The position numbers and the translations under genes were made by a program. A stretch of DNA of 43,431 bases from Elusimicrobiota bacterium (GTDB lineage Bacteria > Elusimicrobiota > Endomicrobiia > CG1-02-37-114 > XYA2-FULL-39-19), in assembly GCA_018816525.1 (NCBI GenBank), contig JAHIVV010000079.1, forward strand, positions 1 through 43,431, read 5' to 3'. Below are positions 36,708 to 38,528 of the stretch, in pieces. The notes below the pieces were generated by a model. The model searched no databases, was not told where the DNA came from, and saw nothing but the letters and a program-made list of their open reading frames with translations. Numbering within the stretch: position 1 is the first letter of the stretch; the number at the start of each line of letters is the position of its first letter.

Positions 36708-37865
36708 ATGTTAAGGTTTATGACTGCAGGTGAATCGCACGGGAAATGTCTTACATCAATTCTTGAAGGGCTTCCGGCAGGGCTGAAAATCACGCAGGAA
36801 TATATCAATTCTGAACTTGAACGCAGGCAAAAAGGTTATGGCAGGGGCGATCGCATGAAAATTGAAAGCGATGAAGCCCAAATATTGAGCGGTGTCCGCT
36901 GGGGTAAAACCACAGGAACCCCAATTTCTCTTCAGATAGAAAATCGGGATTGGAAAAATTGGGAAAAAGTAATGTCGCTGAACCAGGAAGATAGAAGTAA
37001 AAATGTTTTTATCACAAAACCCAGGCCCGGCCATTCGGATTTACCGGGCGTGTTGAAATTTAACCTTGAAGATGTCAGGGATATAAAAGAGCGCGCTAGC
37101 GCCAGGGAAACTGCTTCCAGGGTTGCTGTCGGTTCAGTTTGTAAAAAGTTTCTTTTAGAGTTTGGAATTAAATTCTTCTCGGTAGTTGAAGAAATCGGAG
37201 GGATCGTTTCAATGGGAAAACTTTCTGAAATTGAAAAAAGATATTCGGCAATCGAAGGATCCCCTTTAAGGTGCGCGGATATAAATGCAGAAAAGAAGAT
37301 GATAAAGCTTATTGATAACGCAAAATCCAAAGGTGATACCCTTGGCGGGAAGTTTAAAGTTGTTGTAAAAAATTTAATTCCCGGGCTGGGCAATTATATT
37401 CAGTGGGACAAACGTTTGGATGGCAGGTTAGCGCTTGCGCTGATGTCTATCCAGGCAGTGAAAGGTGTTGAGCTTGGCAGCGGGTTTGGTTTCTCCAAAT
37501 TGCTTGGGTCCCAGGCGCATGATGAAATAGGCTACAGTAATAAAAATTTCTTTCATAAGACAAATAATTCTGGCGGTATTGACGGCGGGATGACTAATGG
37601 CGAAGATATCGTTTTAACCGCTGTAATGAAGCCGATTCCTACGCTTATGAAACCTTTAAAGTCTATAGATATTGCCAGCAAAAAAATAGTAAAGGCGGAA
37701 ATTGTGCGTTCAGATGTCTGCGCGGTTCCTGCATGCGCGGTGGTGGCAGAATCCATGGCGGCTTTTGAAATAGCTAACACGCTCTTAGAAAAATTCGGCG
37801 GCGATTCCATCCCCGAAACCAAAACCAACTTCGAAAACTATAAAAAGCAATTAAGGAATTTCTAG
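36708..37865 (+). CDS. aroC: Chorismate synthase
   Basis: AroC converts EPSP to chorismate, the last step of the shikimate pathway, using reduced FMN. The 385-residue protein has the signatures GESHGKCLTSILEGLPAGL near the start, KPRPGHSDLPG, and RASARETASRVAVG. The late SGGIDGGMTNGEDIV segment is also present. It starts six bases after radA. A truncated small ORF resembling the start of aroK begins five bases after its stop. Confidence 0.97.
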   Translation: MLRFMTAGESHGKCLTSILEGLPAGLKITQEYINSELERRQKGYGRGDRMKIESDEAQILSGVRWGKTTGTPISLQIENRDWKNWEKVMSLNQEDRSKNVFITKPRPGHSDLPGVLKFNLEDVRDIKERASARETASRVAVGSVCKKFLLEFGIKFFSVVEEIGGIVSMGKLSEIEKRYSAIEGSPLRCADINAEKKMIKLIDNAKSKGDTLGGKFKVVVKNLIPGLGNYIQWDKRLDGRLALALMSIQAVKGVELGSGFGFSKLLGSQAHDEIGYSNKNFFHKTNNSGGIDGGMTNGEDIVLTAVMKPIPTLMKPLKSIDIASKKIVKAEIVRSDVCAVPACAVVAESMAAFEIANTLLEKFGGDSIPETKTNFENYKKQLRNF

Positions 37866-37869
37866 CAAA

Positions 37870-38010
37870 ATGAATATCGTTTTAACTGGATTTATGGGTT
37901 CGTGTTGCGACGAACAGGAACAACAAACTATGAACGGGTGGTTGAGCAGAGCGAAAACACACAGGCTGGACATGAAGCCGACAGATGCAATTATTTTGGG
38001 GAACAAATGA
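37870..38010 (+). pseudogene. Small ORF duplicating the shikimate kinase start (aroK remnant or uORF)
   Basis: The ATG at 37870 opens a 46-codon frame that begins MNIVLTGFMGS and ends at a TGA (38008-38010) overlapping the true aroK ATG (ATGA). Its first ten or eleven codons match the real aroK start MNIVLTGFMAT, but almost every codon differs at its third base (AAT/AAC, ATC/ATA, GTT/GTC, TTA/CTT, ACT/ACC, GGA/GGC, TTT/TTC). After S11 the frame (CCDEQEQQTMNGWLSRAK...) matches nothing I know. It could be a recombination remnant of a second aroK allele, or an upstream ORF retained for coupling. Confidence 0.6.
37898..37915 (+). repeat. Inverted repeat at the breakpoint of the aroK-start duplication
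   Basis: GTTCGT (37898-37903) and ACGAAC (37910-37915) form a 6-bp stem around GTTGCG, exactly where the small ORF stops resembling aroK (codons 10-16). This may mark the junction of the inserted segment 37903-38006. Confidence 0.45.
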
Positions 38011-38528
38011 ACATAGTCCTTACCGGCTTCATGGCCACGGGAAAGTCTACGGTTGGGAAAAAGCTGGCAGAGAAGCTGGGCTGGCAGTATGTGGACACCG
38101 ACGAAATTATTGAACACGAAATCGGAATGAAAATTGCCGAGATTTTTGATAAACGAGGCGAGCCGTTTTTCAGGGACGTGGAAACCCGGGCCGCAAGATT
38201 TGCTTCAAAAAAAAATAATTGCGTAATTGCTACCGGCGGTGGAATTGTGCAAAAAGCTGAAAATATGAAAATATTTGAAAAAAACTCAATAGTTGTCAAT
38301 CTTACAGCTAGCCCGGAAGTTATTTTTGAAAGAATCAAAGGCAACACTGACCGCCCTTTGCTTAATAAGCCGGACCCCATGGCAGAAATAACCAGTTTGC
38401 TCGAATTCCGCAGGCCGTTTTACGCGCGCTGCAACATTTCAGTCAACACCGATAAACTTACCGTCGATGAAATCGTAGAAAAAATCTCAGAATATGCCAG
38501 AAATAAAACTAAAAAGTATACAAAATAA
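38007..38528 (+). CDS. aroK: Shikimate kinase
   Basis: AroK phosphorylates shikimate at the 3-hydroxyl. From the ATG at 38007 the product is 173 aa, the usual length. It has Walker A G7-F-M-A-T-G-K13-S14, the shikimate-binding YVDTDEIIE (D residues) and FRDVETRAARFA, then ATGGGIV and the lid-side segment GNTDRPLL. The same frame is open back to 37902, but that extension is unlike the family and is rejected. It overlaps the next gene by 35 bases. Confidence 0.95.
   Translation: MNIVLTGFMATGKSTVGKKLAEKLGWQYVDTDEIIEHEIGMKIAEIFDKRGEPFFRDVETRAARFASKKNNCVIATGGGIVQKAENMKIFEKNSIVVNLTASPEVIFERIKGNTDRPLLNKPDPMAEITSLLEFRRPFYARCNISVNTDKLTVDEIVEKISEYARNKTKKYTK

Follow-up and report, generated by a model that had tools for sequence, protein, structure and literature searches.

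In a draft genome of the bacterial phylum Elusimicrobiota, the shikimate kinase gene aroK is preceded by a second, diverged copy of its own start, and the two starts are separated by a 65-nt twin-hairpin element and a 44-nt tail. The element, referred to here as EL, belongs to a palindromic family spread across the phylum. On balance, it is probable that EL, the tail, and the 5' end of a relative's aroK were imported jointly and that the native start of the gene was stranded upstream of them. Read in this way, an odd duplication of the aroK start becomes an insertion scar with parts that can be dated against each other. The window, i.e., the whole stretch of DNA analyzed (43,431 nt), is contig C79 of a draft genome (G000) of 1.6 Mb in 93 contigs; all features described below lie on its plus strand unless stated otherwise.

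The chorismate synthase gene aroC (36708-37865; PF01264, E = 8e-118) ends 4 nt ahead of the additional start, copy A (37870-37897), which is regarded as the displaced native start of aroK. Copy A encodes MNIVLTGFM followed by the G of codon 10, and its last bases are ATGG. It opens a 46-codon reading frame, ORF46 (MNIVLTGFMGSCCDEQEQQTMNGWLSRAKTHRLDMKPTDAIILGNK; 37870-38010), which begins MNIVLTGFMGS 4 nt past the aroC stop, continues through the element, and overlaps aroK at an ATGA; the encoded 46-aa peptide has no Pfam match. The intact aroK, which carries copy B of the start (38007-38528; PF01202, E = 4e-47), begins MNIVLTGFMAT, 137 nt downstream of the first base of copy A. Over a copy length of 28-33 nt, the two starts form a direct repeat (30 nt, 73%) that ranks first among the repeats of the region. 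Of 33 bases, 22 are alike and 11 are different. In particular, all seven of codons 2-8 are changed, in each case synonymously, and the amino acids are the same through codon 9; codons 10 and 11 differ in the amino acid they specify. An identity of nine residues at the canonical position of aroK is far beyond chance. These data bear out the initial annotation, which had described a second aroK start directly before aroK that diverges from it at third codon positions. It had also proposed, as one of two alternatives, that 33 bases of another allele were left behind; the copy of the aroK start does exist, but it ends at 37897, at the edge of the element, and the final codons for Gly and Ser may belong to the element. 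An 88-aa open reading frame on the minus strand (37851-38117) was set aside as mechanical. The P-loop of the intact AroK reads GFMATGKS, and the codon corresponding to 38034-38036 specifies Gly, Cys, or Ser in the starts listed for 22 relatives.

EL occupies positions 37898-37962 and was delimited by ungapped homologues, covariance models, and covariation. Hairpin 1 consists of an outer stem (37898-37904 paired with 37929-37935), an inner stem (37905-37908 paired with 37920-37923), the loop GACGAACAGGA (37909-37919), and a 5-nt bulge (37924-37928), while hairpin 2 has a single stem (37936-37943 paired with 37955-37962) and the loop GAGCAGAGCGA (37944-37954). The 65 nt align without gaps with a copy at locus L045 and, twice, with L043. 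They score 80.3 bits with the covariance model R1, which was built with the window copy, and 42.6 bits (E = 1.3e-6) with the model R2. The conserved loops are intact and the stems are partly decayed; the window copy is degenerate and, taken alone, no longer folds into the family structure. The small inverted repeat noted earlier at the breakpoint is hairpin 1 of EL. Moreover, the 104 bases between the two starts, which had been said to have no recognisable origin, are for the most part this phylum-wide hairpin element (up to 37962), followed by the 44-base tail.

The first search, with the insert against genomes of the same class (n = 96), yielded two weak 37-base matches in the Elusimicrobia genome RIFOXYA2_FULL_47_53 (G024). 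A pattern derived from this match and scanned against 84,980 genomes was found only in two Elusimicrobia and in one Omnitrophota contig. R1 retrieved further copies, including one in a genome of the same genus, and also matched many relatives of 58-60 nt whose loop is GACGAATAAGGA. With R2, the family was detected in 33 of 341 Elusimicrobiota genomes, with up to at least 16 copies per genome among the matches listed. Its members are palindromes of 58-66 nt with two adjacent hairpins: hairpin 1 comprises a 7-bp stem, an inner stem, a loop of 11-12 nt (GACGAAYARGGA or GACGAACAGGA), and a 5-nt bulge on the 3' side; hairpin 2 has a stem of 6-8 bp and a GA...GA loop. The window copy conforms to this plan, with its stems partly decayed. 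In an alignment of 76 matches, both sides change in 16 of 19 base pairs, and 87.5% of the cells are paired, compared with 72.4% in shuffles, none of which (0/500) reaches the observed value. No EL copy scored at the gathering cutoff of Rfam 15, where only tRNAs near other copies were matched. Likewise, plasmid and phage records, IMG/VR searched with the EL core motif, and the literature searched with the loop string contained no relative. The analysis has uncovered a phylum-wide palindromic family, absent from Rfam, whose stems covary strongly and whose insertion sites follow a recurring pattern. In the single-contig genome G019, nine copies of an 80-nt variant with a shared inner insertion in hairpin 2 have identical scores (L122-L130), a sign of recent mobility. 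In G024 (L189-L200), palindromic repeats are densely nested, EL lies within GTCATTCC...GGAATCC palindromes, and short blocks are shared mosaically among the sites, as seen by BLAST.

The insertion sites were surveyed in 100 non-redundant copies. EL is preceded by GG in 76 of them and by CA in 18, and its typical edges read TGG-G and C-CGG (the hyphen marks the boundary). The sequence to the left of EL recurs to the right at 33 sites, at 27 of which it abuts EL exactly; at 47 sites, there is neither a duplication nor a tRNA nearby. Many copies lie within other palindromic repeats. At genes, EL is arranged in a characteristic order: the 5' part of a tRNA gene, EL, a tail that in most cases measures about 30-110 nt, and the intact tRNA. 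This order of partial target, EL, tail, and intact target was observed at tRNA-Ser, Ala, Asn, Gln, Glu, Arg, Pro, and Thr. The only other EL found in G000 (C50:688-748, locus L188) is of this type, with 18 nt of tRNA-Ser, EL, 42 nt, and the intact tRNA-Ser. The tRNA-Ser unit is also found at L097, L179, L180, L208, L214, and L219, across families of the phylum, with a tail of about 35-42 nt that in most cases ends in a GAACGNAGTG-like motif, which suggests that the arrangement is old or was formed repeatedly. The layout in the window (28 nt of aroK, EL, 44 nt, intact aroK) matches that of the tRNA sites. Furthermore, the window copy follows the family site pattern: it lies after GG, with the left edge ATGG-G, its left flank is repeated to the right, and aroK starts at +45 after EL. 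Among 95 sites checked, no other start of a protein gene showed the EL layout, and aroK is the sole case. A partial target beside an intact tRNA raises the question of how such small repeats, which carry no genes, gain entry to single-copy genes while the host survives.

The same site pattern bears on the quality of the assembly. As the genome is a draft of 93 contigs, the two starts might have come from two strains joined in a chimeric contig. The break, however, is placed exactly at a GG-preceded edge of EL, as elsewhere in the family, gene order and reading frames are kept on both sides, and the genome contains no close copy of the window EL and hence no repeat on which a misassembly could have occurred. 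A chimera is thus extremely unlikely.

Gene order and spacing indicate which of the two starts is native. The order aroC-aroK-pepP-efp is shared with a genome of the same family (G002), and in this genome and many other relatives aroK starts no more than about 20 nt from the aroC stop. Because copy A has the aroC-aroK spacing seen in relatives such as G002, it occupies the native position. Compared with the aroK start of the same genus, copy A agrees at 28 of 33 bases and the present aroK at 25 of 33. The junction comparison did not include the same-genus genome G001, which is incomplete: no aroC was found in it, and its contig begins 183 nt before aroK.

The degree of divergence within the junction allows its parts to be ordered in time, with the reservation that the argument consists of counts on short stretches and not of a phylogeny, for which copies A and B, at 33 nt, are too short. 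A hand count gives about 4 of 65 sites at which EL deviates from its family, and the tail deviates from aroK at 1 of 14. A noncoding copy A that drifted at 11 of 33 bases would be expected to lose its amino acids, which argues that the alleles were already different at insertion; judged from these sequences, the two aroK starts most likely differed as functional alleles before the insert was formed. The two starts are unlikely to have drifted apart after a local duplication, because the decay of EL and the tail is far smaller than the divergence between A and B. These observations weigh on a scenario in which an in-place duplication of aroK, or of its 5' end, was followed by an EL hit on the upstream copy, by deletion of the remainder of that copy, and by drift of both starts. 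Such a course of events would resemble many tRNA sites, where an EL-broken tRNA adjoins an intact copy and decaying remnants lie in the tail. At aroK, however, a useless copy A should have lost its amino acids and yet differs in codons 2-8 only synonymously, the changes in EL are far fewer than those between A and B, and the tail contains no trace of aroK in direct orientation. Tandem duplication is therefore considered an unlikely origin of the two starts.

Joint import is further consistent with the composition of aroK itself. The first 60 codons (38007-38186), which are putatively imported, have a GC3 of 37/60; this value is reached by 0.04% of 9862 60-codon segments drawn from the ORFs of the whole stretch and is the most extreme there. 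In codons 61-120, GC3 returns to normal (17/60). Across 22 relatives, the corresponding drop averages 1.4 (sd 5.4) and does not exceed 12, against 20 in this aroK. If a single change point is fitted, its best position is codon 32 (permutation p = 0.013); a model with two breaks places them at codons 62 and 109, with none of 150 permutations as good. The present aroK thus looks like a mosaic whose front end was borrowed, although something else may have produced the GC3 step, and the single change point reaches no better than p = 0.013. Distant import of the entire gene was rejected: AroK as a whole looks vertically inherited, its closest relative being found in a genome of the same genus (74% aa), and, since the whole protein is nearest to that genus, either the imported segment was short or the donor was close. 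Of the two alternatives offered by the initial annotation, recombination with a second allele is the better supported, given the position of copy A, a divergence between A and B that, judging by the decay of EL, is much older than the insertion, and the outlying composition of the 5' part of aroK; what had been missed is the element that marks the break.

According to the import model, copy A would be the lineage's original aroK start, 4 nt past aroC. EL, the 44-nt tail, and a diverged 5' part of aroK would already have been neighbours in a relative and would have entered as one piece. The left join would lie at EL's GG edge (ATGG-EL), and the right join would have arisen by homology within aroK, at roughly codons 32-62, to give the stranded start A, EL, the tail, and a mosaic aroK. 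A homologue of ComEC is encoded in the genome, which was counted in favour of import. We infer that the joining resembled homology-facilitated illegitimate recombination, which is described for natural transformation and combines one homologous with one illegitimate join (PMC6382021 and references there). As in that process, a short foreign insertion would lie beside a mosaic gene; the composition step fits a foreign segment and GG is present at the left join. The process is known from laboratory systems, whereas the aroK case would have to be read from a single fossil junction. The search for a donor returned no locus with EL upstream of aroK.

The tail (37963-38006), which lies between EL and aroK, has no match outside its own genome among the 96 class genomes. 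It contains an inverted copy of aroK codons 6-10 (TGGACATGAAGCCG; 37967-37980) that is complementary to 38024-38037 at 13 of 14 positions (93%), a match equalled by 1 of 2000 dinucleotide shuffles. This inverted copy fits the present aroK and not copy A; pairing between copy A and the tail was not significant (353/1000 shuffles). The tails of the tRNA-Ser units are similarly complementary to the start of the tRNA, with a Y/R position that fits in 10 of 11 comparable units (hand count). It is conceivable that EL insertion is self-restoring, i.e., that replicative template switching leaves the 5' end of the target, EL, an inverted piece of the target, and an intact target, and that the aroK start was later swapped with a relative's allele. 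The recurrence of the order of partial target, EL, tail, and intact target at eight kinds of tRNA would follow from such a process, as would the complementarity of the tRNA-Ser tails to the partial copy, including the Y/R agreement in 10/11 units, and the inverted copy in the aroK tail. Nevertheless, 47 of 100 sites have no duplication or nearby tRNA, the arms of tRNAs are partly self-complementary, so that inverted tails are to some extent expected, and inverted-repeat tests on single tRNA-site tails were mostly not beyond shuffles. Self-restoring insertion is judged improbable. The broader proposal that EL represents an undescribed class of gene-less mobile hairpins is just as doubtful. Such hairpins would insert near the 5' end of conserved genes (tRNA genes and, in this case, aroK) and restore a complete target on the downstream side, with a partial target, EL, and an inverted target left ahead of it; if it were true, even essential single-copy genes would be open to entry.

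Several known systems share individual features with EL. Rickettsia palindromic elements are palindromic repeats within coding frames that stay open, and EL likewise sits in a frame left open; it differs in lying at the very start of the gene, which is saved by a second start and not by read-through. Site-specific integrative elements, such as tRNA-targeting islands and phage 21 in icd, generate duplicated or re-coded gene ends. The arrangement at EL is comparable in that a displaced partial target lies beside an intact one, the end of which may have been supplied by the element, but EL contains no integrase or other gene. REP elements are imperfect palindromes of 20-40 bp that include the GTAG and CGTC superfamilies (PMC3733652). 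Like them, EL is a short non-coding palindrome that lies mostly between genes, occurs in multiple copies, and is nested with other palindromic repeats; unlike them, it measures 58-66 nt, forms two hairpins, lies beside partial tRNA genes, and is present in only two copies in G000. Inspection of the aligned copies found no GTAG or CGTC tag at the edges of EL. It is therefore a REP-type-like repeat that is not a member of the GTAG or CGTC superfamilies of PMC3733652. REPs mobilised by RAYT (PMC2817692) are also non-autonomous palindromic repeats, and some EL host genomes carry Y1 transposases. However, the EL-rich genomes G019 and G026 lack Y1_Tnp, and EL occurs in none of the 30 Y1 loci examined; RAYT is thus unsupported as the mover of EL.

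The second alternative of the initial annotation, in which the peptide start is conserved as a leader ORF, found no support when the aroC-aroK junctions of related genomes were compared: none of the relatives inspected has a copy of the aroK start upstream of aroK. A functional leader, in which ORF46 couples the translation of aroK to that of aroC and the helix between tail and aroK regulates the latter, is accordingly very unlikely. ORF46 does remain open across the element and ends at the ATGA of aroK, and in the RNA fold predicted for the region the tail-aroK helix is stronger than any other part, its duplex being matched by 35 of 1000 shuffles. The fold of the whole region is, however, unexceptional (z = -1.8), open frames of this length are not rare, and the layout is missing from the relatives inspected. 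Other palindromic repeats do occur at this position: in the same-genus genome G001, they lie just upstream of aroK (L003, 1-183), and in an order-level relative (G003), they are located in the aroC-aroK gap (L004, about 1280-1500). The spot upstream of aroK may be prone to the insertion of palindromic repeats.
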